Source: Malania oleifera
Lineage: Eukaryota > Streptophyta > Magnoliopsida > Santalales > Ximeniaceae
NCBI RefSeq assembly: GCF_029873635.1
Contig: NC_080420.1
Span: 52,467,457-52,531,456, forward strand
Length of the DNA: 64,000 nt
Direction of reading: 5' to 3'
The translations under genes were made by a program, and so were the position numbers. Below are positions 10,497-63,869 of the stretch, piece after piece (position 1 is the first letter of the stretch; every line of letters starts with the position of its first letter). Below the pieces are notes generated by a model, which worked only from the letters and a program-made list of their open reading frames with translations, was not told where the DNA came from and searched no databases.

Positions 10497-10775
10497 CACA
10501 GGTTCAAACGACTGAGGTCTAAGGTTTAGACGTTTGATGTTCCTTAAAGCTTCTAAAAATTGAACTGGACACAGGGTTAGACGTCTAAAGTTGAGGTTTA
10601 GACTTCTAAAGTCCCTACTTTAGACGACTGAACTTAAGGTTCAGACGTCTGAAGGTGTTCTGCCTGTTCTATGTTTTAGCAATTAATTCTTCAGAAGACT
10701 GAACTAATTCTTCAGTCTTCCAAGGAAATTCTTCAGACATCTAAGGGTAATCCTCAGTCCTCTGAGTAGTCCATC
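10497..10775 (-). repeat. Palindrome array in U3 of LTR A (TTCAGACGTCTGAA core)
   Basis: About ten degenerate copies of a TTCAGACNNCTGAA motif lie spaced by roughly 20-40 bases. One copy, 10640-10653, is a perfect 14-bp palindrome. In LTR orientation the array lies just upstream of the TATA-like stretch at 10392-10398. Confidence 0.75.
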
Positions 10776-11212
10776 TTTAATTTTTTTTTTATTTTCAAAA
10801 ATCATTTTTGCTTTCTTGCTTTGCTTCTTCATAAAATATTTTTCAGGGTTTTAAATAGAGTCTCTAAGTCAATGAAGAACCTCTAAAAGATTTTCATGAG
10901 GTGCATGAGTCCTAAGATCAGTTTAGGATATATTTTGAGTTTCGAATTAAATCATATGAAATATGTAAATACATTTAGTTCTAAATACCCATTCCCATGA
11001 CAATCTAGTACTTGCCGCTTACATCTTCATTCTTTCACTCTTTTATTCCCATGGATTGTGCCCAAATGTATATACTTTAATCCTCATAGCTTCCATGACT
11101 TTCTAACCTTCTGTGCATGCTAAATATTGTTCATGTTCACAATCTCAATGCACAGATCAAATACCAAATGATTTGTCATTATCAAAACGAGGTTGAACTC
11201 ATAGAGTCAACA

Positions 11213-11714
11213 GTACGGTCGACCGAACATGCATTTTTAATGCATTTCGATCCTATTCCCTATGTATATTAACCCTATTCATATAATGATTAATGTTTAA
11301 TACTATAGGGCATATTTTTATAAATTTTACGGATTCCTAAGGTCAGTCTAGGTCTTCTTTAGGACACCGAAAAAATCTGGCGTCGGTCGACTGAAGGGTG
11401 ATCCCTAAGGTCTTTCTAAGGTCATGATTTTGTGTGGGGACCTAAAGTCGTTCTAAGGTCTTTGAGCTTGTAGTTCCTACATGCATGATATGCATTAAAT
11501 ATTACAAACCTTTTTCGTATTTACTATTACAAACCCGAATTGAATAAGAATATAAATTACAGCATCAACTAATCTTCAGGGTCTTCAGGCTTCAAGCTTT
11601 CACGTGCCATCAAATATGAACTTGCCAATAAGATCCTGTACACAAACTTGAAAGCCATCAAATATAAAAAATATTTGTCATTATCAAAATTGGGAATTAC
11701 CCATAGGGTCAACA
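11213..11714 (-). mobile_element. SIRE-type LTR fragment D
   Basis: On the minus strand it begins TGTTGACCCTATGGGT at 11714 and runs through TTTTGATAATGACAAA and CAGTCGACCGACGCC, closely following the start of the solo LTR at 46889. It stops at 11213, the outer edge of LTR A, so LTR A appears to have inserted into it. Only the first ~500 bases of the LTR are seen. Confidence 0.75.
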
Positions 11715-12211
11715 GCTGCTTGGAACAAAGTTCCCCAAGGAAGCTACTTGGCGAAGACGAACGTGTCCTAAAATTGGCTCGGATTAGCCGAATTCGGCTT
11801 GACATTGGTTTTACATCAGCTCGAATAAGCTGTCTCCCCCCAATATGGCTCAGCAAAGAAAATATCATTCTAATATTGGCTCTGATCCACTGAATCTGGT
11901 TTGCATCGGCTCGAATAAGTCGTTTCCCTCCAATTTGGCTTGGCATCAGCTCGGCATCGACTCGGGTCAACCGCATTCCTTCAATCTGGGTCATCAAATC
12001 TGGTTGTGTCTTAATATCAACTCGGATTAACCGCATTCCTCCAATTCAGCTTTTCAAAGCCATGTGCATCTTAATATCGACTCGGCATCGGCTCAAATTA
12101 GTCGTTTCTCTCCACTTCGACTTGGTAACCAAAAAAAAAAAAAATAGAAATAGGACAACTCTCGAACTTTCAAGAACAAGTTCCAAAAATTCAAAACTAA
12201 AGGGGGACAAT
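11715..12211 (+). mobile_element. Tat-type gypsy 3' untranslated region with degenerate tandem repeats
   Basis: At 11775-12125 a 60-80 bp unit recurs imperfectly, containing phrases like ATCGGCTCGAATAAGTCGTT, TCCCTCCAATTTGGCT and CTCGGATTAACCGCATTCC. It yields spurious repetitive reading frames on the minus strand. A purine tract AAAGGGGGACAA at 12200-12210 precedes the LTR. Tandem repeats between the last gene and the 3' LTR are known in Tat/Ogre/Retand elements. Confidence 0.65.
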
Positions 12212-16018: not shown

Positions 16019-17909
16019 TGTTGATCTCATTGGTCACACCTAGTTTTGATTATGACAAATACTCTTGGTACTGATGGTTGTACTAAGAAGTGCATGTAGG
16101 TTCACCTTGTGCGCGCTTTAGGACTAAAAGACGTATCATGATGGCGTGCAGTGTTCGTGCCAAAGACTGAAGATCTATGTATTTGTATTCATTTGATTAT
16201 TTCTTCATTCTGGGATGTAATTTATTATGAACTGTGCATGTGTATGACTTGTAATAATTTGCATCATGCATGATAGGTAGGCATGCTCAAAATGACCATA
16301 GTTCGACTTTAGGTACCTACCAAACCTATGTCGTGTAAAGCCGCTCGGGCGACCGAACAAGTCAACACGTTGACTTAGCTTCGAGCAACCGAACCTCTTT
16401 TGAACGTATCTTTCTCGAGCACCTGAATGCTTGTTAGAGCACTTTTCAACTACTCGAGGGACCGAATGTCTACATTCAAATAGAAGCTCGAGTGACCGAA
16501 CTGCCTGGTTCGGTTAACAAAACTCAGCTTCGGACACCCGAACCTTGGATATTTGGCTACTAACTTTGGTTTAGCCAACCGGTCCTCAACTCGGGCACCC
16601 GAACCTCTTAGAGTTGAATTTTTGACTGTGTCTGTTTGGGAACCTGAACCTCTTGCCGGACGACCGAACCTTGCGGGTTAAAATAAATTTTACTGATTTT
16701 TTAAATGAGGTAAACTGGGTTAATTTGCTTAATGGTCTTTTAAACAATTTTAATTATACCCACTATGTCCCCAACAGTCAAAAAAATCCTTCTTGCCTAG
16801 ATATACTCATTCATTTGTCTTAATTAGCAAGGATTAGAAAACTTGATTAGGGCAAAAATTCTCTCAACTTTCAAAACCCTAAAAACCCTATATTAGCCAA
16901 ATATTTCTTCTAAAAATTCACATACTCCTCATTTTCTTTATCTAAGCATTGTAAGTATCTCTAAAAGGCTATTGTGCTTAAATCTCTCTAGTTTATACTC
17001 TCTCTTCGTATATTGATTGATTTATTTTATTTGAGAGTATAGCCTAAAGTTCTTCCACCGATTTCATTTGATAAATCGAGTATGGAAAGACTTTGAGGGT
17101 TTTGGTTCTTGCATTATTGTTGCAAGTTTCCTAAACCTAGATTTTGTGTGCAAAAATATTTTTATAAAAAGTTAGTCTTTCAAACAACTCCATTGTGCTT
17201 TATACATTGAAATTCCTATTGAGTTTGTTTGATTTATCTTGCTTAGCATATTTCAAACCCTGATCTGATTTTGTGATATTCAAATAGTGTAATTCAAATC
17301 TTGCTTAGATATACACTCTAGATCTGGACTAAAAATATATACTTGATTGAGTGTTTAGCACACATTAGAGCACTGAGCATATTTGCATATCATTCATGCT
17401 TGCATTATTGATTGAGCTATATTGGTGCACACAGCTGCTTGTGTTGAAGTGCATTTCCGTGTACAAACAATTTATACACATTGGTTGTATTCCAAGCACG
17501 GGCTTGAAGAGAGAGACTAGCCGTATGGAATAGTCCTGGATTGGCTTAGACCCAGTTAGGAAAGCTAGGTGAGCCATCCTGTTAAGGCGTGTCGGTTGAG
17601 GTCAACCCCTTGAATTGACCTGGTTATATAAGGTGTTGCTCCACCCGTTTAAGTGAGCATTATTGTGGTAATCCTTGTGCCGGTATGGCCAAGGTGGGGA
17701 CATAGGCACAGTTGGCCGAACCCCGATAACATATCGTGCATGTTCTTTACATTTTCGTAATTTACATTTACTACATGTGTATGTTTGTTTGATGATTGCA
17801 TAGGCTGACCTTAGGCTAAATTACATTGTTGTTAAAATATGTAGACCTAGGTAACAAATTTTTTAAATACCCAATCCCCCCCCCTTTTGGGGTTGCACCG
17901 TAACTATCA
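16019..17909 (+). mobile_element. 5' LTR of element B
   Basis: Begins TGTTGATCTCATTGGTCACACC-like sequence and ends GCACCGTAACTATCA, directly before the primer site. It carries TTTTGATTATGACAAAT at 16044-16060, a palindrome array at 16338-16680, the block AAGGTGGGGACATAGGC at 17691 and a C-run near 17877-17884. Confidence 0.9.
16338..16680 (+). repeat. Palindrome array in U3 of element B 5' LTR (CTCGGGCGACCGAAC core)
   Basis: Around ten copies of an imperfect palindrome of the form CTCGGGCNACCGAAC spaced 20-50 bases. The same array recurs in the 3' LTR at about 23515-23880. A TATA-like stretch follows at 16797-16806; it is better preserved in the 3' LTR (TATATATA at 24003-24010). Confidence 0.8.
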
Positions 17910-17923
17910 ATTGGTATCAGAGC
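17910..17923 (+). promoter_or_regulatory. Primer-binding site of element B
   Basis: ATTGGTATCAGAGC directly follows the 5' LTR and matches initiator tRNA-Met. Confidence 0.9.
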
Positions 17924-17961
17924 CTCGTCACTTAAACTTAGACGTTATTTAGTAAAAGATC

Positions 17962-19269
17962 ATGATGACTCGTGTTAGTGCATCCCCTTCATGTGAGGGA
18001 AGATTAGTCACACACCCACCTGTATTTTGTGGTATTGATTATGCTATATGGAAATTTAGAATGATTGTGTATGTGCAAGCTCTAAATTGGAAATTTTGGA
18101 AAGTCATTGATCAGGGTGATTTTGTGTGTATGAAGTCTATTGGGTGTACTAATGTTCCTAAATATGAGTTTGAAATGAATGATCATGATAGGGACTTAGT
18201 GCAAGTAAACTTTAATGCCATGAATACCTTACTGCATGCTTTATATTCTAATGTTTTATGTGAGGTCATGGATTGTAGTAGTGCTAAGCAGATTTGGGAT
18301 GAACTTGAGTGGAGATATGGTGCGTCCATGCAAAAGGGAGTCATCTCTCCATGTGACTCAGGCTTCACTAATCTTAAGGAAGGTAACCAGTGTTATGTAG
18401 CTTTAACTTTTGATGAGGTTATTTCAGTCCCTTCTGTCTTTGTAGATGAATATGAGTATGATTCTTGTGCTGATTTGAATACTGCATCTGATACTGAATC
18501 ATATGATAGCACTGATAGTGAAAGCATGCTTACTTATCAGGAATTGCAAATTGAATATCTTAGGACTCATAAGTTACTTGTTAAATGTAATAAGAAATAT
18601 TATGTTTTGGAAAACAAGTATGAAGCATGCATGAAATAATGTGACTCTAAAGTTTTTGCTGAAAGAGAAAATATTTTGAAAATCAATAGTCTAGAAAGCA
18701 AGAATGAATCATTGGAAAATGAGTTAACTGTTTTGAAATCTAAAACTTCTAATGATGATAATAAAGATTACTTGATTGCAGATCTTGAAAGTAAAGCAAA
18801 CAACATGTCTAAAGAACTCTTGAAACTTCAGAATGTTTGCAAAAATTTGGAGAACTCAAAAATTCAAGATCTAGAGAATAAAATAGAAGACTAATCTAAG
18901 ATCATCTTTAAGTTCACTAGAGGCAAGGAAAACTTTGATAAACTGTTAGGTGCACAAAAGATGACTTTAGATAAAGAAGGTATAGGTTACAATGGGATTG
19001 AAAACAAGAAAAGAAAGAACCTATACATGGGGTACTTTGTAAAAAAGTCGAAACACTATGCCAGTACCTCCTCTAGTCCATACACTCACACCACATGCAT
19101 CTTATGTAAAAAGAAGGGGCACACAAAATTTGATTGCCTGTTTAAAAGAAAAGGTGTGAAACCCAAGCAAGTATGGAAAGTCAAAGTATCACCAAATTCT
19201 AACCCATCAAATATAAAAAGAAGAAAAATGGTATGGATGGTTAAGAAAGAAAAGGAAGGACTTGCTTAA
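17962..19269 (+). pseudogene. gag remnant of element B
   Basis: The frame opens MMTRVSASPSCEGRL, then a UBN2-like gag core (PPVFCGIDYAIWKFRM, NWKFWKVIDQGDF, NVLCEVMDCSSAKQIWDELE). An acidic segment and a Glu/Lys-rich coiled coil (18676-18894) follow. The C-terminal part at 18961-19269 has NLYMGYF and a CCHC knuckle CILCKKKGHTKFDC with KPKQVWKVK. This is the SIRE gag plan. The gag is broken but most of its length is visible. Confidence 0.85.
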
Positions 19270-20107
19270 ACAGGAATTACATAATCACATAGCTCTTCCT
19301 TAGTAGTTAGGATTAGATGTAGGGGGTAGCATTCTCTAAAAGGTTAGGTAGTGGCTTGGGGCTAATTAATATGAAATCTTGTATATTCACCATTCCAAAA
19401 GCATACCAAGCATCTTGGAGAATTAAGCCAATATGTAAATTCAAGTACAAAACCAATCTGGCCTAAATGAATATTCTTGTTGGTTTAAATATATATCATT
19501 GGTTGTTTAAATAAAAATCCTCTCCTAAATGGACATGGCATGAGTGCCTTTCATTTAAACTTCAAGTCACTTAACACTTGCTCAAATATGAACATCTTAC
19601 GTTAAGCATACTTAGTCCATTGTTCAGCTTTGAGGTTTGGAATTAAAGTCATAAATCCTGCCCTAATCTTACGTTGAAGCCATTTCATTGTCCTAACTCC
19701 TACAGATAATCCATAGGGTCTCTTGCTTTAAGAAATAGATCAAATATGAATAAATAGACCTAGGTCGGGTGACCAAACCTATAAGCACATTTGCACTTCG
19801 GTCGACCGAACTAGAAGGTTAACCACGTCGTTGACCTCATTTCGGGCGGCTGAATCTTCATGTTCAAATCTACTCGGGCCGCTGAACTGTCTTCGGGTCC
19901 CCAAATATATATTCGGGCTACCAAACTGAGCATTTTGGGCGACCGATTGAGTTAGTTTAAAATCTGTTCGGGCAGCCGACCCTCGAAAATACAAAATGGC
20001 CCTTGAAATTCAGCCAACCGAACCTTTCTTCGGGCTGCCGAATAGACTTAGTAAGCCCTCATAATTAAAGCTATTCGGGCGACCAAACCAATGCTCAGGC
20101 ACCTGAA

Positions 20108-20159
<52 letters not shown>

Positions 20160-20259
20160 GGTTCTCCGCGAAAAATGGTTCATTTTCTCCACACATTTGA
20201 GAGCCTCCTTAGCTTTTTCTCTCACAGCCTTCCCCAGCCTTCTGTTAGATTCATTTCCA
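19270..20259 (+). other. Interior spacer of element B with palindrome array
   Basis: No protein seen. At 19761-20106 there are about nine motifs such as CGGTCGACCGAAC, TTCGGGCGGCTGAA and ATTCGGGCGACCAAAC, of the same kind as the LTR arrays. They end at a (CA)n(TA)n microsatellite (20109-20159), about 100 bases before the envelope-like frame. Confidence 0.7.
20109..20159. repeat. (CA)n(TA)n microsatellite
   Basis: Eighteen CA units followed by seven TA units, read directly. Confidence 0.97.
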
Positions 20260-21403
20260 TGGCCAGAGATGAGATACGTGTTGCCACGGGTGTCCCATTG
20301 GATCAGTGGTTTCCCATACCCGATCGAAGAATAAAATATGAGAGAGTGTTTCGTCTGAAGGATCTCATTCTAGGAAAAATCCTCGATATCGAATTCATGC
20401 AAACCCACTTCAACAATGTTCTAAACATGTTTCAATATTAGGGATGGTACGAGCTCATCGCCTTTCAGCCCAGGGGGATGTACCTACTGCTCGTCCGGCT
20501 CTTCTATGCAACCTTGCCCAAGATGGCTAAGGCTATTACACCATGGTACTAGAGACAAACATCCACTTCGATGATGCATACCTGGTGGAGACTTTTGACA
20601 TCCAGCATGGCGACTTCATTTGCCCCGATTCCTCCTCCACTTGGATAGCCGAGCAGGACTTCACTGTGAGTAACTTTTTCAATTTGGTCATGACAAACCC
20701 TGTGGCTGACTTGACCTATACCCCCAGCTACAGATCCTTGACTTTGGAGGCAAAGGTGGTACACCACCTGATTTCCTATAATATTTTGCCCAAGTTAGGA
20801 TCGAGGGATCATGTGTCCTACTTGGACTGCTTCGTCATGTGATGTCTCCTTACTAGGAAGAATCTAGACCTACCTAGATTGATCCTACAGTGGATGTTTG
20901 TCAACCCCATGGGAAAGAGGATCATTTTGCCCTACGGTGGCATTCTATCTAGGATATTCGTTAGGGAAAGGCTGAATAGGTCACCACTAGCTACCATCAA
21001 GAAGGTGCGACCCTATGACGTCTTCAACTCCATACCTTAAATTTGATGGGATATGAGCTGAGTGGCAACATGTGGTTGCCTACTACACATGAGAGAAAGC
21101 TAGGAGGTCCCACAGGAGCTACCCCATATACCGTCTACCGTCGAGATCATAGTAGCCATCATAGATCTCTCCGCCTCATTTCAGGAGTTTCGAGTCTCCA
21201 TGACTGAGCAGGCATCTTCTTCTCAGGCTAGACTTGACTCCCTTACAGCGAGTTCACTGACTTCCAGTCTGAGGTGCGGGCTAACTTCCATATCCTTGGT
21301 AAGTGGCTGCGAGAGATGAATGACGAGGATATCAGTGAGGATGACCAGATGGAGTTGAGTGAGGAGGAGGGAGATGACGATTATGACGATGGAAAGACCT
21401 AGG
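20260..21403 (+). pseudogene. Envelope-like / plant transposon-protein domain remnant in element B
   Basis: Peptides coded here (MARDEIRVATGVPLDQWFPI near 20260; RLFYATLPKMAK; TLEAKVVHHLISYNILPKLG; ILPYGGILSRIF) resemble the domain called putative plant transposon protein, found in the region after integrase in Athila, Tat and some SIRE elements and often described as envelope-like. A Glu/Asp-rich tail (EDDQMELSEEEGDDDYDD) closes it at about 21330-21400. Broken in several places. Assignment is from memory of the family, not from a search. Confidence 0.55.
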
Positions 21404-22214
21404 AGTGCTTCATAAGGATCCAATCCGTCATTCTACAGCTCCTTATTTGATCATCTATTTTATTTTATTCAGATACATTTTTTTATTTGGTCTGTATCTA
21501 TACTTAAAGCAGCTTATATATCTGTTCCAATTTGACTTTCATATTCACCACTCACATAGAGATACTATGATATGGTGACTGTGCTTTTGATCATGATATA
21601 TATATATATATATATATATATATCTACAGTACTTTGATTTGCATGTGTTTGTGTTTAAATGGTTATTCTATTGAAATACATGCTTAGTATAGAAAACCTC
21701 CTGCATGGCGGATGCAGTGGATGAGAATTGTCTGCTGGTAGATTATAGGTTCTCGCATGCTTTACTCTTGAAATATTGCCTCTTTGAGAATCATTTTTGT
21801 GCAGGTTAATTTTAGGAAATGTCCTGTTTACAGCTGGCATGCTACCAAATTTTCTGCAGACATTTGCCCAAAATATTTGAGATGATTTGCTTTGTTGTGT
21901 GCAAATGTGATTTATACTTAAAGTCTAAATACTTATGCTTGACTCATTTGCGTTAAATGGTTAAACTCCTTGGGGCTGGTTGTGCATATTTATTTAGAAT
22001 ACTGGCAGATTCTTATGGATTGCTCACATCTTCAGACAAAATGCTGCTAAAATTTTTGAAATCTTTGCACATAACCTAATATCATTTTCTTAATACTAAA
22101 CTCCTTAAAACTTGAGTGTGTTTCAAAGATAATTTGTGAATTTTACTCATTGATTTATAAATAAAATGCATATTCTTAGGGGGAGTCATTTATATAAAAA
22201 TTATTAGTCTCTGG

Positions 22215-22270
<56 letters not shown>

Positions 22271-23038
22271 TGCATTCACTGCTATATCTTTTGGAAAATA
22301 TAATAACAATTGGTATCAATGTACACATCTTGGTAAATCTATATTTGAAATCACGTTCATTTCAAAACTAACAATAAGTCCTTATAACTAGTGGTATTGT
22401 TTTAACAATTGGTATCTTCTCTACCACTTAGTTATAACAATTGGTATCAGACTCACACGTTTAATATACTATACTTTATGGGCATACTTGTTTGTTTTGG
22501 AAACCAAAGATGATTATGATAAAATTAACTTTAAAATATTTTTGAAAGGATGAGTGAAAACCAAATAAAAGATTCATCTTTATCCTTGCATAATCATCCA
22601 TTTGGGGAGTATAGAACATTAAAATTGTTAACATGCTGCATGCTTCTTTCATTTCCTTGATGCATATTCTATTTGGGTTAATTAATTGAAATATGCTATA
22701 TACTATTCATTATACCTTCAAACAAGTCACTTAGGTACAAAGTTATAATTGGGAATTGTCTACTTTCAAACGGCATGCTGCCGAATTTTTTAAGTCTTCC
22801 CAATATACTTCTTGTATCTAATTGATGTCCTTTGCCTTCGCGCTTTATTGCTTACCCCTTTTTGCTGTTGCCAAAAGGGGGAGAAGAGGCAAAAGTGGGT
22901 ATTACTGTGGTTATTATTGTGTTCTATTTTACTTATATCTGTTATTACCCATATCTTTATGCATAATGTCAGGGAGAACCTTTCTTGGCTAAACCCACTT
23001 TTTCATAAGGTATTTGTTATCATCAAAAAATGGGAGAT
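21404..23038 (+). other. 3' untranslated part of element B with TA microsatellites and polypurine tract
   Basis: Mostly AT-rich with no gene. (TA)n tracts lie at about 21597-21623 and 22217-22268. Repeated phrases AACAATTGGTATC occur at about 22306, 22405 and 22437. A purine patch CCAAAAGGGGGAGAAGAGG is at 22873-22891 and the tract AAAAAATGGGAGAT ends right before the 3' LTR. Confidence 0.7.
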
Positions 23039-39491: not shown

Positions 39492-39741
39492 GTGGATCTC
39501 CCAGCTCCAAAAGCAAAAGACAGAAAGACCGAGACTGGGCATCAACAGATTAAAGCGGGTTTAAATAGATAGATATAATCTGTGGGCAGAACGCTTGTTG
39601 TGCGGGCCCGATGACGAAGACTAAATGAATAAAAACAAAAATTGTGAAGCAGCATAAAATCCCAGAAGCAGTGGACGTGAGGGGAGAGTCCCAAGCTCTC
39701 ATCTTCCGGCACCGTCTTTGATATTTCCGGTGCGCACAACC

Positions 39742-43614: not shown

Positions 43615-43655
<41 letters not shown>

Positions 43656-44238: not shown

Positions 44239-44289
44239 TAAAAATATATATAAATAAAATAAAAGTTTACGAGATGTCATCAAATACAG

Positions 44290-46308: not shown

Positions 46309-46888
46309 TAGGCCTATCTATAGCTATACTATGATGTTGCTAGTTTCCTAAGTTATAACTCCCTGCATTCTAAATATTGTCATCTTTGCCATGAGTCTCT
46401 AACTCCACCTGGACCATATGCTTGTTGCTATTGTAGTTTTCTGCCACCTGTTTCTCTTCTTCCTAAGTATGCTACAACATGGCTTTCTCATCAAAAAGCA
46501 CATCTCTACTAATCACCGCCTTGTTTGCCTTCAGATTCCACAGCTTGAACCCTTTCACCCCTTAGTAATACCTTAGAAAGATGCATTGTCTAGACTTTGC
46601 AACAAGTTTTGATCTCTCCTCACTAGAAACATGTGCATAGGCTGGACATCCAAACACTCTCAAACCAAAGTAGTCTACCATGCTACTTGCACACACCTCC
46701 TTTGCTACTTTCCCATCTAGTGTTACCCTTAGTGATCTATTAAACAAGAAACACGCCATATTTACTACCTCTACCAAGAAGTTCTTTACAAGCCCTGCAT
46801 TCAACCTAAGACACCGAACTCTTTCAGCTATTGTTCGGTTCATCCTTTCCGCTACACTATTTTGTTGTGGTGTCTTGCGTACTGTGAC

Positions 46889-51820: not shown

Positions 51821-52152
51821 ATGGATAGGCTGATGGGCCTTCTCAGACTGCGAGTGCGCAGAGGGATCAATTTGGCCGTTCGCGACACCCGCAGCAGTGA
51901 TCCTTACGTCGTCATCACCATGGGCGAGCAGGCATCTCTTCATCATTCTCTTCTTTCATTTCCAATTTTTTATGCTCTAATTTTTTTCCCCGTGTTCTTG
52001 ACTTTGAACTCTATTTGATCATAGATGAATTGTTTCTGTACCTAATCTTTGATTTGCTCATGTCGTTGGTGTGCTTGTTTTTTTTCGCGTTCATTAAGCC
52101 ATTAGGTTCTGAAAGCATTTAAAAATAACTTTATCTTTGTTTTATTTATTTC

Positions 52153-52186
<34 letters not shown>

Positions 52187-53740
52187 GAGGATTATGAAAT
52201 TGTCAACTTATTTTTTAATTTTAGGCATAATACACCCATCTTCTTAATGTCCGAACGAAGTCAATTGCAAGACCTCAGATGCAGTTGGCTATCCATGGTC
52301 AGTTGTGGGTCTGCCTTTTATTGTTCTTGCTGTGTTCTTTTGAGGATTCTGGAGAAGGTGCCTAGCTTGTACCATCCATTGCTGAAACTCTAGCTAATTT
52401 TACTTCAAATTTCAGTGTATCTGTTGGTTTTTTCTGTTCAAATTCAGGAAGGGATAACGCCTTCAAATGCCCAAATTTGCACTTTTCATGATCCTAAAAT
52501 TTGATGATCTGTTATGCTATTGTGTTTTTAAAGCCATCCAGATGCATTGCTTTGGTATTCTAACTCTAGTACACTTTGCTGGTGGGTTGAATTTAATGTT
52601 GGTTCTCTGAAATTTGTGGACATGCTGCAAGATGGTTTGTAAAGGGAACACTCTATGCTTGTTTACTGAAGACTTGTATTCTGTGTTATCACTCTCATCT
52701 CTGGTTAGATGAATTGATGCAGAAACTGAAGACTGGCGTGGTGAAAAACAATTGCAATCCTGAATGGAATGAAGAACTGACTCTCTGTGTTGCAGATCCT
52801 GATGTTCCCGTCAAGATGGTAAGTGGTAACCGAATTTTCACTTGGTGCTATACGATTACCAATTCCATGATGCTTATCTTGGAACAGACAGGCCATGTTA
52901 TGGATGCATGAAAATTAAAAGTAAATTCCAAAATGAAGACCAACTTTCGATTTTGAAAGCTGCTTTAAGAATTAATAGCAACTTTTAAACTCAGAACTGT
53001 TTTCATACTTAAAAGCAGTTTTCAATTTCATAGGCTACTTTTAATTTCGATAGCTTATTTTTCAGTTAATTTATTATATCAACGTGACCCATTTGTGCAA
53101 ATTTTCTGTCCAGATAATTTATGGGGAAATTGTCACTATACTAAAATACATCCAAAAAATGCTTTTAGCGTCATTTGCATTGTTTTTCGTACTTAAATGT
53201 AGTTTTCAATTTCATAGGCTACTTTTAATATCGATAGCTTATTTTTCACTTAATTTAATATGTCAGCTTGACCCATTTGTGCAAATTTTCTGTCCATATA
53301 ATTTTTGGGAAATTGTCACTATTAACATACATCCACAAAATGCTTTAGTATCATTTGCATTATGCCTGCTTGTTTTTCCAGTTATTGAAGAGTGGCAAGA
53401 ACTACATTTGCTGCAGGAAACCCAAACTAAATTCTGTTTTCCATTGCAGATTGTGCATGATAAAGACACATTCACTGTAGATGATAAAATGGGCGAAGCA
53501 GAGATTGACCTAAAACCTTACCTGGAGTGTGTGAAAAAGCACGTAGACGTCCAACCAACAGGCACTGTAATCTCAAGGATTCAACAGAATAGGAAGAACT
53601 GCCTCGCCCAGGAGAGTTGTATTGTCTGGAACAATGGAAAACTGGTCCAAGACATGTGCCTCCAATTGAAAAACGTAGAGTGTGGAGAAGTGGAGGTACA
53701 ACTCGAGTGGATTAACGTTCCTGGTTCCAAAGGTCTTTAG
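51821..53740 (+). CDS. C2-domain ABA-related (CAR) family protein, right copy, 3 exons
   Basis: Exons 51821-51931, 52723-52818 and 53450-53740 code 165 residues identical to the left copy; I see only a silent change in exon 3 (GAGTGC to GAGTGT). Same GC at the first donor. Introns also nearly identical, differing by single bases and an ATT repeat length. This is far closer than ordinary paralogues of different age, and the copies are probably two alleles placed in tandem across the gap. Function as for the left copy: calcium-dependent phospholipid-binding C2 protein expected at the plasma membrane in abscisic-acid signalling, by family membership. Confidence 0.9.
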
Positions 53741-55016
53741 AGTCCAGGTACGCTTTTGTATATGTTTGTTGTATGTAAAAGACGTAATGTTGGAGTGGAT
53801 TGGTTTAAGTCGTGTACTGGATTTGAGGAAGTGCTTCATATTCTAATTTAGTTCGCCATAAACAAGGTATGTGATGAAGCAAGCAATGTTTATTCTGCTC
53901 ATTTTATTGTTATTGTAATTATAGTAACAAGCTTTGGAGTCTAGGAAAACAAAAGAGAAAAAAGTTACAGTCTAATTAATTTTCTAATAAGTGGGCATAA
54001 TTTTCTGGTATCTTAGGCACAAAGAGTAAGATGTCTAATTATTTGATTTGTGCATGTGTTTGGACTCGGCAAGCTTTAGCTATAAACTGTGGAGTTCTAT
54101 TTGTATTTGAATGAATTGGTTTAATTTAATTTGATGAAGGACTTAAAAAAAACCTTGGTCCTAATCAATTTTCTTGTATTTTGTGCTTGTAATTCCCTCA
54201 CCTTCTGTCTGGGAGCTTAGTGGCACCTTGCTTCTGGAACCCAAAAAAAAGTACAACATTGTATTGAATTTTATTTAAATCCATACAATATAGATCTACC
54301 TCAAAAACTTGAAATTCATGCTCTTACCTACAACCTCAGAGAAAAAAAATATTCTCAGAAAGAATTTATGAGCTTCTTGAACTTCTTTAATGAGTTGAGG
54401 GTAACTTTATTTGTATGGTTAGATGAGTGGTATCTAATTTAAGAAATTAATAACTCTCAACATCATTGGTAAGTCATATATGCATAGACTTTGGATTTAT
54501 CTTAATACTGGTTCAATATTTTGAATAGATCTAATATGCTAAGCTTACCACACTTGGATTTAGCTTAATAAAGTTTTGAATAATTTAGTTTGAATCATTT
54601 GGATTTGATTCGTGAAACTATGATCAAATTTCTTTGATTAATTTAATATTTTAGATTTGACTTACTTGTCAACCTCCAATGCCACATCTCTAATTTTTTT
54701 TTACTAATGAGTACAAGTTGTTCTTGATTAAGGCATGTTATAAGCCATGCTTTGCATGCCTTAGGGGGTCTAGACTTGAAGAGCCTTTTAATAATAATAA
54801 TAATACATTATTATTATTGTTATAGACATTGATTTGCATGTGATGGACCATATTTTCTCTCAATCTCTTTCTTCCCTCCATTTTAAGACTTCTTCCATGG
54901 TTAACCTTCCACCTTGTATGGATCATCCCTGACAAGTGAAGGATGCTTGCCTTTCCAATTATTTAATTTATTTACTAAAAGGGATTTAGTTTACTATAAA
55001 TATCTTTTTTTTGGCA
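53741..55016 (+). other. 3' flank of the CAR gene, right copy
   Basis: Nearly identical to 41658-42925; no gene recognised. Confidence 0.6.
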
Positions 55017-55686
55017 TTTACTGTTCGTTACAAATCTCGCACCCTTTTGACTTTGTAGGGAGACGAAAAATGTAAATAAAAAAAAATACAAACTACAAAA
55101 TTATAATAGAATGTATATTAAAATTTTGTATGTACGACCTTTAGTTTTTTTTTTTTCTCTGATTAATCCTCCTTTGAAATACTGTTGAGGGTTATAGTAA
55201 CTTGATCTCTGGCGGAACGAATCTTGTCTAAGTCTTCATCTCGACAACAAAGACAATTTTGTAGGCGAAGTTGGACATGTTTTGTTTGGGGCTTGAAATA
55301 AAAATAGTTGGATTTTTGGAGGGTTGATGTGTGGAACTTAGGGAATTGATAGATTTGTAAAGATGATGAAAATTTTTTTTTTTGTTTTTACCATTCGTAG
55401 ACAAAAAAAAAAAAAACTTTGCCTTTTGTTAACAAAGTAGTTGGTGATTTGCCAGAGGAGTGGGTGGAGTGTGAGATAAAGATAATGAAGAGACCCACTT
55501 GGAGTAGCTAGGTAGTGGATGGAGATTTTTATTTTTCTCTCTCTTGCTTTTCTTCCTTCTTTGGTATAAGAGGAGATGCAAGAGTTTTGTGCTTTTGTTG
55601 GAGCTGGGTAGCAAAAGACAATGCTTGAGTTGTTGAAGATGGACAGTGAAGGAGTGAGACTAAGAATTCTAAGGAAAGTTGTATAT

Positions 55687-55737
<51 letters not shown>

Positions 55738-56293
55738 TTGATGCTTGATCTTGATTTTTTTTGGTAGGCGAGATCCGATCTCGCTATCTTCATCTGGTAA
55801 TATGGACACGTAACGAATTTTGGCACCGGAAACACCGTTTTTTTCCCTGATGGTAATGTTTTTTACCAGATACTTAAAATTCGACGTCGCCGGCGAACTT
55901 CTTTCGCTTAGATGTCGGCATTTTTTAACAAACTGGCCTAGATCCGGTACCAATAACCATTGGCAACTACTACCTTTGGACCAAAGTGTTCAGATCCGAT
56001 GTTGGTAGTGATTTTTTTTCCCACCTTGATGGCAACACTTTCGACAAAAGTCTTAGATCTGGCGATTTTCTCAACTTTGGCGGCGGCACTTTCGACAAGC
56101 TATTGTAGCTCTCGATGGAATCTTAAAGGAGGAATAATCAGAGGGAAAAAAAGAAACCAAAGGTTGCACCTACAAAATTTTAATATACATTCCACTATAT
56201 AATTTTGTAGTTTGTATTTTATTTTATTTTTATTTGCATTTTTTATCTCCCTACAAAGTCAAAAGGGTGCAAGATTTGCAGTAAACAAATTCT
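55017..56293. mobile_element. Inverted-repeat unit U1, right block copy
   Basis: Ends are inverted copies: TTTACTG...CTCGCACCCTTTTGACTTTGTAGGGAG on the left (55017-55065) and CTCCCTACAAAGTCAAAAGGGTGCAAG...CAGTAAA on the right (56253-56289), with homology reaching over 150 bases inward. Interior includes (CT)n at 55690-55733. No transposase. Foldback or MULE-like origin is possible, but class is undetermined. Confidence 0.65.
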
Positions 56294-56476
56294 TTAAAAA
56301 ATATATATAAATAAATAAAAGTAAAGATGTCAAATACATATTTATACACTTTGTAAGAGTACAAGTGACAAAATACATATGTATAAAAATATGCTCTATA
56401 AGCGTACAAAAATACAAATTACAAAGGTGTGGACATATTTCAAAATCAAAAAATCAAAGAAGAAAAATCATTGTCG

Positions 56477-56770
56477 GTGTCGAATCTATGACTTTTGTCG
56501 AAAGTACACCGCCAAAGTTGAGAAGCTCGCCAGATCTACACTTTTGTCGAAAGTGCTGCTGCCAAAGTTGAGAAACTCGCTTGATCTACGACTTTTGTCA
56601 AAAGTGTTGTCGCCAAAGTTAAGAAGCTTGCCAAATCTACACTTTTGTCGAAAGTGTCATTGCAAAAATTGAAAAGCTCGCCAGATCTATGACTTTTTCC
56701 AAAAGCTTCGCTACCAAAGTTGAGAAAATCATTGGATCTAAGACTTTTGCTGAAAGTGTCCTCGCCAAAG
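56477..56770 (+). repeat. Subterminal ~60-bp tandem repeats of U2
   Basis: Units share CTTTTGTCGAAAGTG, CCAAAGTTGAGAAGCTCGCC and AGATCTACGAC. About five to six imperfect copies; counterparts in reverse at 61540-61775 (U3) and 44430-44740 (left block). Confidence 0.85.
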
Positions 56771-57027
56771 TGGAAAAAAAAATCACTGCCGGCGCCGAAT
56801 CGGAATACGTTGGTCCAAAGGTAGCAATTTCCAATGGTTGTTGGCACCGGATCTGGGTTTGTTTGTCAAAAATGTCGCCATCCAGGTGGAAGAAGTTCAC
56901 TGGCGACATCAAATTTGAAGTATCCAGTCAAAAACACCACCATCAGGGAAGAAAAACAGTGTTGTCGGTGCCAAAATTCATTGCGCGTCTATATAACTGG
57001 ATGAAGATGGCGAGATCGGATCTTGCC

Positions 57028-57035
57028 TATAAATA
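57028..57035 (+). promoter_or_regulatory. TATA box in unit U2
   Basis: TATAAATA inside CTTGCCTATAAATATCCAAGC; conserved in U3 on the minus strand (61268-61275). Suggests the unit once directed its own transcription rightward here. Confidence 0.55.
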
Positions 57036-57321
57036 TCCAAGCCTCTTGTAAAGCCAAAAAAAAAAAAAAAAAATCAAAACCAAGTATCAAGCCAAAAAAA
57101 AAAAAGAAAAAAATATACAACTTTCCTCGTAATTCTCGGTCTCACTCCTTCTTCACTGTCCATCTTTAGCAACTCTAGCCTTGCCTTTTATTGCCTAGTT
57201 TTAGCAAAAGAACAAAACTCTTACATCTCCTTGAATACCAAAGAAAGAAGAAAAGCAAGAGAGAGAAAAATAAAAATCTCCCTCCACTACCGATCTACTC
57301 TGAGTGGGTTTGGTGGCTGTC

Positions 57322-58324: not shown

Positions 58325-60181
58325 TTAGGGGACATTCATGGACTTAGAAATGTTGTTAAAATCTTGAAAAAAGTTTTTATAAAAGAGCCAAGAAAGAAAG
58401 CAAAGCAGATTTTTAAGTTAGAAAGGAAAAATTAAAAAAAAAAGGCACTTCAGGAGCCTGAACTCAACTTCAGTAGCCTAAAAAAATTTTTCGGTTACCT
58501 GAAGATTAAGTTTAGTAGCGTGAAAAATTAATGGGAAACACAGAACCTGACCGAGGCACTTCGGTCGCCTAAATTGAGGACCTCAGGCGCCTGAACTTGT
58601 CACTTCAGGAGGTTGAACCCCACTTTGGTTGCCTGAAGTCGCGAGAAAGTTTAAAAATCAGATTTTTATTAAAAGAACTCGCGAGCTTTTTCTTTGATCC
58701 AACGGTTGAGATCAATTCTAAGGGTAAGACACTATATATACTGAATATCTAAACCCTAGAACGAGCGTAGACACAAGAAAGAGAAGAACACACCTTATTG
58801 AAAGAATATTGAAAATTTGCTCCTATTGCTATACGATTGCCTACACTTCAATCTCTAATCTTCGAGCTTGGGCAAATCAACTCAGATTCTCAAAGGGAAC
58901 TTGTTTACTCAAGTGTACTTCAATCTAGTATTGAGGTTTGATCTTTCAAGTTTTTATTCTTAAGAACTTCTCATCTCATCTCATTACGTGCTCTTGATTT
59001 TCATTAGAAAAGTTTTGATCTTGAGTGTGCATATTCGTATAAAAATTGATTTTTGAAAAGATCATTACTTGAGAGAGCTTAATTAACTTGGTTGGTTGAT
59101 TTTTGATTCAAGAGTATATAAATATACATATATATCATTCATTGAGCTTATTATTGAAAAACCTATTTTGATTAAAACGTTGATCTTGAAAGTACCTATA
59201 CGTATACATAGTTATTCTAAACAAGATCATTACTTGATTTAAATTGTGTGGTTGATTGAAATGTTTGATTCAAGTGTGTGTTATCTAAAGGAACTATATT
59301 TTAGTTATATTAACTCTTGATTAAATATCCTTGGTACTTATAACTATACATTTTATTAAGAGATATTTTCTGAAAAATAATATATTCGATTTGGGATTGA
59401 ATACTTGAAATAAAACTTTGTGATTTTGATTGATTTAATATTCAAGACAAAGTTTTGTTAACAAGTTCACTTCAAATATACTTGTGCTTTTTTACAAAGT
59501 GAATCAGGAACCCTAGTATACTCCAAAACATTTTTAATATATCTTTACTTAGAAGTTTTGATTAAATAGGGATTTGGTTGAAGTATATCATACATAAAAC
59601 GATTGTATCGTTTTCATACAGTCATGAGTTTCAAGTTATATCATATGTTAATGTATTAGGAAATTGAATTGTACTCACAAGCTTTTGTTAGAAGCATTGT
59701 TTTGGGTGTTATTTTTTAGATTCTATTGTATACACGGTTCGGTGTGTGAACCGGTGTGTGAGGAGAGAGTTGTATCTCTTGTAAGTAGTGGAGTAGGAGA
59801 AAGTTGTATCTCTTATAAGTAGTAGAGTAGGAGGGAGTTATACCTCTTGTAAGCAGCGGATTGTAAGGGAAGCTCCGTCCCAATTTAAGGAGCAGGGATT
59901 TAGTGAAACCCTTGAGTGGTTGCTCAAGGCGAGGACGTAGGCCAAGTCGGTTGAACCTCGTCAAACTGTATTTGTCTTTTCTCTTCTCTTTACTCTTTAT
60001 TTTCAGCACTGTATTTAAATTGAATATATTGCATGCATAGGTTAGATAGTCTTACACTTAAGTAATTGAGTAATAAGAATTTATTGGTAAATATATAAGA
60101 AGGGTTTAAGCGGTAAATAAGTGTCAAAGATTTTTTAAATACCCAATTCACTCCCCTCTTGGGATTACACTCGATTCAACA
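57979..60181 (+). mobile_element. SIRE-type solo LTR E
   Basis: 2203 bp from TGTTGACTCTACGAGTCC to TTGGGATTACACTCGATTCAACA, with perfect GTAAA duplications at 57974-57978 and 60182-60186 and no interior. TTTTGATAATGACAAA at 58005-58020, U3 array 58445-58645, TATATATA at 58733-58740 with AAACCCTAGA, (AT)n at 58279-58322, U5 block AAGGCGAGGACGTAGGC at 59926. It sits in the spacer between units U2 and U3. Confidence 0.94.
58445..58645 (+). repeat. Palindrome array in U3 of solo LTR E (TCAGGCGCCTGA core)
   Basis: Motifs such as CTTCAGGAGCCTGAAC, CTTCGGTCGCCTAAA and a perfect 12-bp palindrome TCAGGCGCCTGA at 58583-58594. TATA box about 90 bases downstream. Confidence 0.85.
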
Positions 60182-60932: not shown

Positions 60933-60993
<61 letters not shown>

Positions 60994-61883
60994 AACAGCC
61001 ACCAAACCCACTTGAAGTAGCTACATAGTGGAGGGAGATTTTATTTCTCTCTCTCTTACTTTTCTTCTTTCTTTAGTATTGGAGAAGATGTAAGAGTTTT
61101 GTGCTTTTGCTGGAGCTATGCAGCAAAAGGCAAGGCCAGAGCTGCTGAAGATGGATAACGAATAAGGAGTGAAACCGAGAATTACGAGGTAAGTTGTATA
61201 TTTTTTTTTCTCTTTTTTTTTTTCTTGATACACAATCTTGACTTTTTGGCTTGGCAAGAGGCTTGGGTATTTATAGGCGAGATCTGATCTCTCCATCTTC
61301 ATCCGATGATGTTGATGCGTAACAAGTTTTGGCTCCGGTAACACTGTATTTCTTCCCTGATGGTGATGTTTTTGACCAAATACTTCGCATTCGACGTCCC
61401 CGACGAACTTCTTCCACTTGGATGGCGACATTTTTTGACAAACGGGCCTAAATCCGGTGCCAACAACTATTGGCAACTGCTACCTTTGGACTGACGTGTT
61501 CAGATCTGGCGTCAGCGTTGATATTTTTTTCAAGATTGGCGGTGACACTTTCTGCAACAGTCTTAGATTCGGTGATTTTCTTAACTTTGGCGGAGGTGCT
61601 TTTGGCAAAAGTCGTAGATCCGAGGAGCTTCTCAATTTTGGCGGCGACACTTTCAACAAAAGTGTAGATCCGGCGAGCTTCTCAACTTTGGTGGCGGCAC
61701 TTTCGACAAAAGTGTAGATCTGACGAGCTTCTCAACTTTGGCAACAACACTTTCAACAAAAATCGTAGATCTGACACCGACAATGATTTTTCTTCTTTGA
61801 TTTTGAAATCTGTTCACATCTTTGTAATTTGTATTTTATACGCTTATAGAGCATATTTTTATACGTATGTATTTTTTCAGCTA
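60187..61883 (-). mobile_element. Inverted-repeat unit U3 (mirror of U2) with T-rich inner flank
   Basis: 60187-60440 is T-rich spacer with a fragment of the subterminal repeat. 60440-61883 mirrors U2: end sequence CTTGCACCTTTTTGACTTTG (about 60465), a minus-strand frame ending with EDLDKICSTRDQATVAINRI-like coding near 60590-60660, (TG)n(AG)n at 60918-60988, TATA box on the minus strand at 61268-61275, and ~60-bp repeats at 61540-61775. The outer edge is interrupted at 61884 by the next LTR. Confidence 0.7.
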
Positions 61884-63869
61884 TGTTGGCCTAACTAAGT
61901 TTTTCAATCTTATTTTGATGATAACAAATGGAGGATGTTTTAACTTGTGTTGTTGAGTGACTTTATTTCAGGTCTAAGTAAAAGGACAATCATGGTTAAT
62001 CATGGAAAGTATACTGGAAATCGAAGTCAATCAAGTGAAAGTTTCTCAATATATTGAAGTAATGAATGACAAATGAAGAGCTTAAAGGCTAAGCAGGACT
62101 TGGAGTAAAGACTGAACCTCAAGAGACTGCAAGACTTAGTGATTAAGGAGATCATGCTTAGAAGAATGTTTATAAGTACTTCAAATTTATTACTATTTAG
62201 ATATGTGAAGCTTTGTAGGATAAGAAGACTTAGAAACCATTTCTTCTAAAACCTTTGAAAATGATTTTGAAAGAGTGGTACTTAAGTTTTTCAAAATGAA
62301 CTAGAATTTAAAAATCAAAAATGAAAAAAAGAGGACTGGTCAGCCGACTGACTAGAACACACCTTGTTTGGCCAGCCGACTAACAAGCATAATGAATGGA
62401 AAAACATCTGTCCAGCCGACTGACCATTTTTGAACTGGGATCAGTCAACCGACTAACTCCCTGGTCTATCCAACCAACTGACTATTTTGAACATAATTGA
62501 GTCAGCTGATTGACAATTTATTAGAATTATTCTTTTGAGAGACAGAATGGTGTCAGCCTCCTGTCTAGCCGACTGACAATTTATCCGAATTATTTTTTGA
62601 GAGACAGAATGGTGTCAGCCACCTGTCCAGCCGACTGACTAGTACAAAAATGACCCAATTGAGTGAGTCGGCCGACTGATTCTACAGAAATTTTAAATTT
62701 CGAACTATACGAGAAGTTTTTCAAAATTGATTCTATGATTTAATATATTTTGAAAAGTTGCCTAAATACTCCATGTTAAATAAGGAAATTATTCTTTAAG
62801 AAGTCTATAACTACCTCTTTTGCTCAATGAAAAAACACGTTCAAGCAATACACACTTTCTACGCTAAAGTTCTCATAAAGCTCATACTTGCTCACACTTT
62901 TGTTAGGGGAAACTCTACGAAATTGTCGATTGATTAAAAAGCTTTCGTTCTGATTTGCAACTAAAATCTCTATATCAATAAAAAAGAACCATTGGTGACT
63001 TCTAAACCTTGAGCTTCACATTTTTTATTTAGTTTTGGTTTTGAAGTACGATTAGTGATTTAAGTTGTACAACTTGCTTTGTGTTTGAGAGTATTTTTGT
63101 GCGCAGATATCCATTCATTTCTACTAGATCTTTGACGGTTCAAGGTATAGTTGGATCGTTACACCAAGCATAGGTTGTTGCTTGGAGAGGTTTCTCTTCC
63201 TAAAAAAGGGTTGGTTGTTGTAAAGGTTTTTGTTCCACCTGGAAGGAATAAGGTATAGTGAAATCTTTAGGTGGTTGACCTAAGGCGAGGACGTAGGCTG
63301 GGGTAAGTTGAACCTCCTAAAAACACCGTCTCACTCTCTTCTCTTATTCTCTTTAAATTCCAGCAACAATATAAAATGCGTTGATGTATTAATCTTACAA
63401 GCAACCTTGGATATTAAATAAACCTAAGATTAAAATTGATTGGGTTGATTATCATTGATTGCGGAAACCGAAAGCAAGTACATTGGTTGATCAACTCCTA
63501 AATTCTTTTAACTAAGGGTTTATTTAAAATCTGAGTTATTGAAAAGAGTGATTGAATGTTTTATTAATTTTCAGTTCAAAGGTCAACTACACGACTTGCA
63601 CATTCATATACAAGACTGTTGAATATTACAAGGCATATATTGATTACTTGTATTGTGTTTGTTTGGTTTGAACAGTTAATCAATTGGTTGTGTATGTTGT
63701 GGTTATGGATTGAATAGAAGAAGTAAATATTTGTATGGATTGCCTAATCAACAAGAATATAAGAAGTTTTAAAAAAATTTGTAAAAAGTCAAGAACTCAT
63801 AAAAAGACTCTTAAGGAATTTTAAATAACCTAATTCATCCCCCTTCTTGGGACTACACCTTAGGTTTCA
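61884..63869 (+). mobile_element. SIRE-type copia 5' LTR (LTR F)
   Basis: 1986 bp from TGTTGGCCTAACTAAG to CTACACCTTAGGTTTCA, followed by a primer site and gag. TTTTGATGATAACAAA at 61913-61928, U3 array 62338-62690, TATAA near 62806, U5 block AAGGCGAGGACGTAGGC at 63282, end block TTCATCCCCCTTCTTGGG near 63835. Rest of the element is outside the window. Confidence 0.9.
62338..62690 (+). repeat. Palindrome array in U3 of LTR F (GTCAGCCGACTGAC core)
   Basis: About ten copies of an imperfect palindrome CAGCCGACTGAC; one stretch AGTCGGCCGACT (62666-62677) is perfect. Includes a ~62-base direct duplication at about 62512-62636 with GAGAGACAGAATGGTGTCAG in each unit. Confidence 0.85.

Follow-up and report, generated by a model that had tools for sequence, protein, structure and literature searches.

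SIRE-like, Tekay-like and Tork-like LTRs of Malania oleifera carry CG-centred dyad arrays ahead of TATA-like boxes

LTRs of SIRE-like, Tekay-like (gypsy) and Tork-like (copia) elements of Malania oleifera carry arrays of CG-centred, dyad-symmetric boxes upstream of TATA-like boxes, which confirms the central observation of an earlier note on the same DNA. On balance, these arrays probably represent promoter-proximal (U3) enhancers composed of repeated dyad-symmetric sites for dimers of DNA-binding proteins. The analyzed window comprises 64,000 nt (GCF_029873635.1, NC_080420.1 positions 52,467,457-52,531,456, forward strand), and within it the motif coordinates reported earlier were reproduced for A, B (both LTRs), C, E, F, Tekay and Tork with its duplicate (Table 1). 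The cores, previously labelled "GC-core", are actually CG-centred. Their description as palindromes holds for examples such as the perfect 14-mer of array A, but the motifs of B, F and Tork as quoted are imperfect. Likewise, the arrays are indeed upstream of TATA, but "just upstream" fits them loosely: distances read off the sequence are 8-20 bp in both Tekay families, approximately 95-130 bp in SIRE arrays A, B2, C, E and F, and approximately 130 bp in Tork, where the TATA is the least certain of all. A second TATA-like stretch lies beyond the other side of the array in the window Tork copy.

Table 1. Dyad arrays and associated TATA-like boxes in the window.
Feature	Positions	Strand	Remarks
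Array A, core TTCAGACGTCTGAA	10503-10766	minus	SIRE-like; perfect 14-mer at 10640
TATA-like box of A LTR, CCTATATAAT on minus strand	10390-10399	minus	aligns with TATA region of E
Array B, left LTR of element B, CTCGGGCGACCGAAC type	16344-16669	plus	SIRE-like
Array D, internal to element B, outside LTRs	19764-20106	plus	upstream of open frame starting near 20267
Array B, right LTR	23516-23873	plus	SIRE-like
TATATATA (TATA) of right B LTR	24003-24010	plus	
Tekay-like array, core TTCGTCGACGAA	25951-26124	plus	
TATAAATA of Tekay-like LTR	26145-26152	plus	20 bp past last box
Array T2, core CTCGTCGACGAG	33592-33761	minus	spacing Tekay-like as read on this strand; array alone
T3 array, second Tekay-like family	35682-35870	minus	TATAAATA at 35666-35673 minus, 8 bp off
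T3, tandem-duplicated copy	45421-45608	minus	
Tork-like array, 5 boxes	39202-39315	minus	TATA-like box 39064-39071 minus (uncertain)
Tork-like array, tandem-duplicated copy	51291-51404	minus	
Array C, core CGGTCGACCG	47217-47746	plus	12 boxes in 47367-47746 and a lone box at 47217
TATAAATA of LTR C	47877-47884	plus	130 bp past last box
Array E, core TCAGGCGCCTGA	58449-58637	plus	4 boxes, 49-bp step, 4 boxes; TATATATA from 58733
Array F, core TCAGCCGACTGA	62339-62680	plus	TATAAC at 62806

The motifs are strongly over-represented. TCRGNCGNCYGA was found 84 times in the window at a threshold of at least 8/10, whereas 10 first-order Markov simulations averaged 22.9 and never exceeded 30, and TTCGTCGACGAA at least 10/12 was found 21 times (mean 1.8, maximum 5 in the same number of such simulations). 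A search for strict palindrome clusters (5/6 pairs, CG centre) recovered only four of the window arrays (33.6k, 35.8k, 45.6k and 47.4k); since the remaining arrays are too imperfect for it, scans for repeated motifs were used. In the 400-bp motif scan, 17 of 202 shuffled windows reach 5-6 copies by chance alone, and the weak 5-copy rows of that scan are therefore not evidence. One candidate, L069 (TTTCGTCGAAAT), was set aside because it is AT-rich and hard to interpret. Genome-wide, exact tandem pairs numbered 6681 for the SIRE C core, 4078 and 1386 for the two Tekay cores, 367 for SIRE A, 88 for Tork and 40 for SIRE E, while reversed control cores for all six gave 0 pairs. For two of the six, permuted palindromes matched in composition and CG content served as a further control and also gave 0.

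The SIRE cores all vary a single motif, TCRGNCGNCYGA, and are not mutually independent: a symmetric motif with variable positions spans all arrays from A to F, and arrays A and E can be aligned as relatives. The earlier view that simple shared descent does not explain the arrays is thus wrong within SIRE; between SIRE, Tekay and Tork it stands, as far as the sequences can tell. The CGG-CCG core signature of Sirevirus arrays is present in B, C and D and is replaced by CAG-CTG in A, E and F. The letters that differ among families sit at ±2 and ±4 of the dyad in SIRE, and on its outer flanks in Tekay and Tork. Read from its far end, array A consists of two groups of 4 boxes separated by a 50-bp step, followed by 2 boxes closer to the TATA-like box. 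In the Tekay-like family with core TTCGTCGACGAA, 5-8 boxes at a threshold of at least 9/12 occur in all 30 fetched copies, the window copy included, and in the column-majority sequence of 30 Tork copies AACCGTCGACGGTT is present in 2/5 boxes.

Domain matches separate the gypsy and copia elements. A Ty3-type integrase (SH3_Tf2-1, E 7.9e-23) was identified at the Tekay-like locus L038, in a frame that stops approximately 275 bp before the LTR; another fragment (L021) had no Pfam family, and in the one fragment searched for a chromodomain at the integrase C-terminus, Pfam gave no match with E of 5 or lower. Copia-type reverse transcriptase (L068; RVT_2, E 4.8e-26) was found upstream of the Tork LTR and Pol_BBD (L055) downstream of it. 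The names Tekay and Tork are provisional and follow the earlier note.

Boxes of SIRE and Tork are spaced near whole helical turns. Among the matches listed, 182/190 pairs lie within a quarter turn of a multiple of 10.5 bp (A 49/50, E 40/40, C 46/50, Tork 47/50), while Tekay pairs are barely in phase (58/100 among the matches listed, baseline 52%). When the modal spacings of all six cores were pooled, R at 10.5 bp was 0.61 (p 0.00015 vs uniform spacings), with a broad period peak (R 0.59-0.62 across 10.25-11.5 bp); SIRE C alone was higher at 9-9.5 bp (R 0.78) than at 10.5 (0.71), and Tekay alone higher at 11.5-12 bp (R 0.71-0.72) than at 10.5 (0.51). A further periodicity test, first made on partly hand-chosen intervals, was repeated with automated box calling in 15 arrays, in which B1 was omitted as a copy of B2 and T3 was kept alongside Tekay. 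These calls, which contain 12-15-bp register errors in F and L073, gave R 0.42, 0.38, 0.40 and 0.56 at 10.5 bp for four thresholds with a phase of 0.2-0.4 bp; at the three lower thresholds (R 0.38-0.42) the peak falls anywhere within 10.25-11 bp. Neither the intervals inside one array nor the places belonging to one family are mutually independent.

The two Tekay families share a grid, 21,25,21,50,20,24,20 in one and 21,25,19,47,20,45 in T3 (p 5.5e-5 vs pooled SIRE and Tork intervals), with spacers that are close to unrelated. At E <0.03, BLAST between their LTRs matched nothing but the arrays, and pooled spacers were 27.6% identical vs 27.2% when shuffled, four single-copy comparisons with T3 giving 28-38% vs 26-27% shuffled. 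Box identity between the families is 82%, a value inflated by calling all boxes with one pattern. SIRE A and E also have one grid with different cores (21,21,21,50,21,22,21 and 20,21,21,49,22,22,20). The match between the Tekay and SIRE A grids has p 6e-5 against pooled intervals, a pool that includes A, but permuting the order of the intervals within A weakens this to p 0.048. For this reason we treat as speculative, and rather doubtful, a reading in which gypsy and copia share a grid of two sets of four dyads at approximately 20-25 bp with a step of approximately 50 bp, where one multi-dimer host assembly would read the geometry while box and spacer letters drift from family to family.

Among the roles suggested earlier, dimeric transcription-factor sites fit best because of the near-helical SIRE and Tork spacing and the Tekay grid kept with unrelated spacers, although the Tekay phase is barely above baseline. 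Each box would be bound by a homodimeric protein, most likely a host transcription factor. Spacing near whole turns in SIRE and Tork could place neighbouring dimers on the same face of the DNA and allow them to act cooperatively on the promoter. Family-specific letters may result from binding of related proteins, or from following one changing protein.

Another possibility, which we consider unlikely but worth weighing, is an RNA role, in which U3 palindromes within read-through or genomic RNA would fold into hairpins or pair into duplexes that are diced to siRNAs, allowing host recognition, or that serve the element as dimerisation signals. All ten folded stretches (nine arrays and one more Tekay copy) were stabler than dinucleotide shuffles on both strands, with z from -1.8 (Tork) to -12.0 (C), and palindrome regions of maize Sireviruses are described as sRNA hotspots in the accessible text of PMC5311732 and PMC10760457. 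Such stability does not discriminate, however, because any palindrome folds by its very design, and near-helical spacing is not something that an RNA role predicts. Within boxes, C-to-T and G-to-A changes occur at similar rates (Tekay 116/638 and 111/610; A 40/240 and 36/216; Tork 128/498 and 112/488, p 0.33), indicating no clear preference for G-U-tolerant changes. By count, the Tork C-to-T share is raised in boxes (128:112 vs 224:402 outside, p 3e-6), but the respective rates, 0.257 and 0.230 in boxes and 0.192 and 0.151 outside, attribute this mostly to base composition. The read-through hairpins proposed earlier would be stable and could have a role, but box decay shows no clear RNA-tolerated bias. 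Dyad partners do not change together more often than expected in Tekay or Tork (odds ratios 0.66 and 0.38); the odds ratio for A is 1.77 in 8 copies. Boxes with both partners changed are still complementary in 21/26 cases for Tekay, 30/50 for Tork and 15/21 for A, as decay at symmetric CG sites alone would yield. Symmetric CG/CHG methylation platforms, boxes that exist to be methylated or to sense being methylated, seem very improbable to us. Every core, as read, has at least three symmetric CG or CHG sites, but neither extra CG nor extra CHG loss was found inside boxes: CG deamination in boxes vs outside was 0.192 vs 0.248 for Tekay (p 0.0004), 0.262 vs 0.284 for Tork and 0.157 vs 0.203 for A, and CHG deamination was 0.247 vs 0.276 for Tork and 0.186 vs 0.186 for A. 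The suggestion that boxes are special methylation targets was therefore not borne out. CHH deamination was higher in boxes than outside, though not significantly (Tork 0.187 vs 0.128, p 0.08; A 0.103 vs 0.067, p 0.25). Methylation would also not need specific flanks, yet the CG-matched permuted palindromes form no tandem pairs.

The arrays could also be targets of a sequence-specific anti-silencing or regulatory protein of the element itself, with a separate target in every family, comparable to VANC and its motif arrays; to this reading we assign a small probability. In the accessible text of PMC5735166, VANC targets of Arabidopsis VANDAL are likewise short motifs in dense non-coding tandem arrays that differ among related families and whose repeat units evolve together. 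Unlike the arrays here, VANDAL elements are DNA transposons with a TE-encoded binder and methylation is lost; the VANC21 motif repeats in a single orientation and is not described as palindromic, the word "palindrome" being absent from the main text (PMC5735166). The extra array D ahead of an open frame in element B would suit such a protein, but none was found: two ORF pieces tested had no Pfam family above its cutoff, and L038, the sole Tekay-like locus with an integrase match, leaves little space for a gene in the approximately 275 bp before the LTR. A similarly low probability is given to neutral, functionless local expansion via slippage, template switching or unequal exchange. Tandem arrays form readily in LTRs, and the alternation of 33- and 40-bp intervals in SIRE C suggests a duplicated unit of approximately 73 bp. 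Within families, no box-specific constraint was found for Tork or A (A/T columns changed in boxes vs spacers 0.080 vs 0.077 and 0.030 vs 0.023), and that for Tekay is weak (0.043 vs 0.068; p 0.007 by cell, 0.15 by column). However, spacers should then travel with boxes, whereas the Tekay families keep boxes and grid with spacers near random; near-helical SIRE and Tork spacing would be unexpected, and the site upstream of a TATA-like box repeats in three lineages.

Repeated or symmetric transcription-factor sites occur before TATA in the U3 of other copia elements, such as the BI/BII boxes of Tnt1 and the heat-shock elements of ONSEN; these sites have known stress factors and few copies, and we know of no grid that they have in common with gypsy elements. 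A literature search on the Tnt1A U3 gave no match. Other parallels are the repeated motif (RM) boxes of Sireviruses, which are palindromic, family-specific, present in at least 8 copies per element and located in the upper LTR half shortly before TATA, with extra boxes before ENV (Bousios et al. 2010, PMC2829016). In the accessible text of that paper, they are termed Sirevirus-specific and missing in classic copia elements, and no common binding factor could be identified. The Vitis RM CGGTCGACCG is the core of window array C and the Usier RM GTCGGACGTCCGAC resembles A; the SIRE part of our findings is prior art (PMC2829016). New are the arrays in one Tork-like copia and two Tekay-like gypsy families; the SIRE-like cores here also add CAG-CTG forms to CGG-CCG, and neither helical spacing nor a conserved grid is among the features described in the accessible part of PMC2829016. 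As reported in PMC5311732 and PMC10760457, maize Ji, Opie and Giepum have palindrome clusters with strong predicted secondary structure in the cis-regulatory LTR part; that work included sRNA mapping, whereas ours uses sequence alone. Tekay or Tork palindrome arrays were not described in the accessible literature searched (including PMC10794571, PMC6911290 and PMC11963269), a coverage that leaves out most subscription journals.

That gypsy and a second copia lineage of one genome carry arrays, together with the SIRE and Tork spacing, makes this oddity testable. The predicted binder would bind a dyad centred on CG, would be sensitive to box phase, and would be the same or a related protein in the different lineages. 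Transposons would then be keeping the geometry of a promoter as its sequence is replaced. The finding is also relevant to whether array regions are chiefly promoters or chiefly silencing triggers.

The SIRE clade name is provisional and follows the earlier note; we use "SIRE-like" because the octamer 10 bp before the 3' LTR of element B differs at 2/8 bases from the Sirevirus AGGGGGAG. Element B has AT before the TG of its 3' LTR, as in the Sirevirus AT/TG attachment site, together with TSD CATGG, TGGTATCAGAG after the 5' LTR and a gag-like match below the Pfam cutoff. For A, an ORF of L007 contains a CCHC knuckle. Array D, which was absent from the earlier list, resembles the pre-ENV repeat cluster of Sireviruses (PMC2829016, accessible text). 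Exact AGGGGGAG copies are present further upstream in element B, at 22178 and 22876, similar to the extra PPT copies of Sireviruses.

LTR retrotransposons crowd the 64-kb window of plant DNA, and their LTRs carry rows (arrays) of short palindromic boxes upstream of TATA-like boxes. All motifs listed in an earlier note were found at the positions it gave, and they are CG-centred dyads. A single symmetric motif, TCRGNCGNCYGA, fits the cores of the SIRE-like arrays A-F; at a threshold of at least 8 of 10 matches it occurs 84 times in the window, whereas ten simulations averaged 22.9 occurrences and never exceeded 30. The Tekay core TTCGTCGACGAA (at least 10 of 12 matches) occurs 21 times (simulated mean 1.8, maximum 5, ten simulations). 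The proposal that each family has its own core thus holds at the level of detail, although the SIRE cores are variants of one site.

Positions of elements, arrays and duplicated units in the window
Feature	Positions	Strand	Remarks
Array A, SIRE-like	10503-10766	minus	
Element B, SIRE-like	16019-25124		5-bp TSD CATGG; TGGTATCAGAG directly 3' of the 5' LTR
Array D	19764-20106		Inside element B; on one side is a gag-like ORF, on the other a short unassigned frame that opens near 20267
Tekay-like array	25951-26124	plus	
Tandem duplication, one unit	35480-45216		
T3 array (second Tekay-like family)	35682-35870	minus	
Tork-like array	39202-39315	minus	
Tandem duplication, other unit	45222-57224		
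LTR C, SIRE-like	46889-49201		TSD GTGAC; interpreted as a solo LTR

Tekay, Tork and SIRE are putative clade assignments taken from the earlier note and general background. Gypsy and copia identities count as tested because Pfam domains adjoin the LTRs at three loci: a Ty3-type integrase end precedes the Tekay-like LTR at L038 (SH3_Tf2-1, E 7.9e-23), while Tork-like LTRs adjoin a copia RT at L068 (RVT_2, E 4.8e-26) and, at L055, a copia Pol beta-barrel. A second Tekay-like fragment, L021, matched no Pfam family, and a search of one Tekay-like fragment for the Pfam chromodomain gave no match at E up to 5. In element B the AT/TG junction of Sireviruses is present, as are exact upstream copies of AGGGGGAG, but the terminal octamer is two bases off AGGGGGAG. 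The position of array D resembles that of the pre-ENV boxes of Sireviruses; no pol domain was found among the ORFs of this stretch put to Pfam. Array A lies on the minus strand, and its tail, containing a TATA-like box (10390-10399, minus), aligns with the tail of E. Two lone CGGTCGACCG-type dyads close to array A (11213-11396) are perhaps remnants of another SIRE LTR. The units of the tandem duplication (~10-12 kb, ~95% identity) each hold one Tork-like and one Tekay-like LTR; LTR C splits one of them, so its insertion could be dated relative to the duplication. Three further arrays (L072, ~8593-9133; L073, ~2642-2909 and 9029-9204; locus coordinates) and one doubtful candidate (L069) were found in six 10-kb stretches at two hand-picked places.

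For Sireviruses, Bousios 2010 (PMC2829016) describes boxes that are palindromic and specific to each family and lie upstream of TATA, with additional ones before ENV, and says that classic copia elements lack them. The Vitis Sirevirus core given there, CGGTCGACCG, is the core of family C here. Among family-specific motif arrays, the closest analogue is the set of VANC target arrays (PMC5735166). As far as the literature searched shows, the occurrence of arrays in LTRs of Tekay-like gypsy and Tork-like copia elements is new, as are near-helical spacing and conservation of the grid (the ordered box-to-box spacing) between families.

Five to eight boxes at near-constant positions were present in all 30 fetched Tekay-like copies, including the window copy (44 matches were listed and 30 loci taken, on the basis of similarity to a query containing the array). 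Majority spacings are 21, 25, 21, 50, 20, 24, 20 in Tekay-like copies; 24, 28, 21, 29 in Tork-like copies (30 of 41 matches); and, in window direction, 22, 52, 21, 22, 21, 50, 21, 21, 21 in A (8 copies of 41). In 67 intervals from nine arrays, partly chosen by hand, the best period was 10.25 bp (R 0.534; at 10.5 bp R 0.527, phase 0.15; p 5e-5 by jitter). Automated box calls in 15 arrays at four thresholds gave R of 0.42, 0.38, 0.40 and 0.56 at 10.5 bp, with a phase of 0.2-0.4 bp and a broad peak.

Counts per core, taken over the first 40-50 listed genome places, indicate strong near-helical spacing in SIRE and Tork, and almost none in Tekay: against a baseline of 52%, 49/50 places of A, 40/40 of E, 46/50 of C and 47/50 of Tork were in phase with 10.5 bp, compared with 30/50 and 28/50 for Tekay TTC and CTC. 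Places of one family are homologous, and these counts are therefore not independent trials. Tekay steps alternate between 20-21 and 24-25. Modal spacings pooled over six cores gave R 0.61 at 10.5 bp (p 0.00015) and 0.62 at 10.75-11. Not every core peaks at 10.5 (SIRE C 9-9.5, Tekay 11.5-12); common to the cores is a near-zero phase at 10.5 bp (+1.19 for A, +0.62 for E, +0.55 for C, -0.85 for Tork, +1.33 and +1.88 bp for Tekay) rather than a 10.5-bp peak.

One grid is common to the Tekay-like family and T3 (21, 25, 21, 50, 20, 24, 20 versus 21, 25, 19, 47, 20, 45; p 5.5e-5 when tested against intervals pooled from SIRE and Tork). By BLAST, the array alone matches between their LTR regions at E <0.03. 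With copies pooled, box identity was 82% and spacer identity 27.6%, versus 27.2% shuffled; in four single-copy comparisons boxes reached 69-76% and spacers 28-38% (26-27% shuffled), the box figures being inflated because one pattern was used to call boxes, which leaves the spacer figures unaffected. A and E, which can be aligned as relatives (72% over 278 bp), keep one grid; their identity is 63% in boxes and 49% in spacers (30% shuffled).

Exact tandem pairs of cores (starts no more than 48 bp apart) were counted in the whole 1.49-Gb genome: 4078 for TTCGTCGACGAA, 6681 for CGGTCGACCG, 88 for CCGTCGACGG, 367 for CAGACGTCTG, 40 for CAGGCGCCTG and 1386 for CTCGTCGACGAG, absolute counts being governed by element copy number. 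Backward-read controls, which also lose the CG sites, gave 0 pairs for all six cores; palindromes matched in composition and CG content, obtained by permuting the half-sites of TTCGTCGACGAA and CGGTCGACCG (2/6 cores), also gave 0.

The symmetry, the near-helical SIRE and Tork spacing, the conserved Tekay grid with near-random spacers and the location, in three lineages, ahead of a TATA-like box favour recognition of the dyads at the DNA level by protein dimers, which would bind the boxes at the promoter with a putative effect of activation, repression or anti-silencing. An RNA or siRNA role, as suggested for maize Sireviruses, may exist alongside DNA-level recognition. C-to-T and G-to-A decay of boxes proceeds at similar rates on both strands, and RNA-tolerated changes are not clearly favoured. 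Joint change of dyad partners was sought in Tekay and Tork copies and not found. Symmetric methylation had also been proposed as a role for the boxes. C-to-T or G-to-A changes make up 227/272 box changes in Tekay, 240/303 in Tork and 76/104 in A, a pattern that methylated DNA would give. In Tork, C-to-T makes up a larger share of changes by count inside boxes than outside them (p 3e-6), mostly through base composition. Decay at CG and CHG sites in boxes is equal to or slightly below that outside, which counts against a special methylation role. Within families, conservation of A/T columns was not clearly higher in boxes than in spacers, and the decay results give no support to selection on single inserted copies, as we would expect if most copies are dead.

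Some of the longer spacers of array C (~47419-47437 and ~47495-47516) contain a second dyad, GTCAA...TTGAC, a W-box-like inverted pair. TTGAC would also be obtained by deamination of the central CG in GTCGAC boxes. A similar dyad occupies 26125-26139, after the last Tekay box and ahead of TATA. Between array and TATA there is a TTTGATCCAACGGT-like stretch in E (58693-58706) and in A (10426-10439, minus; altered in the window copy), and CCCAACGGTT in C (47850-47859). Two tandem arrays of ~50-bp units (56484-56778 and 61536-61775) are mutually inverted inside a larger inverted similarity. About four 55-bp units (AGACCGGTTGGGTTCAACCC...) at 29866-30094, outside any identified LTR, also contain short dyads.
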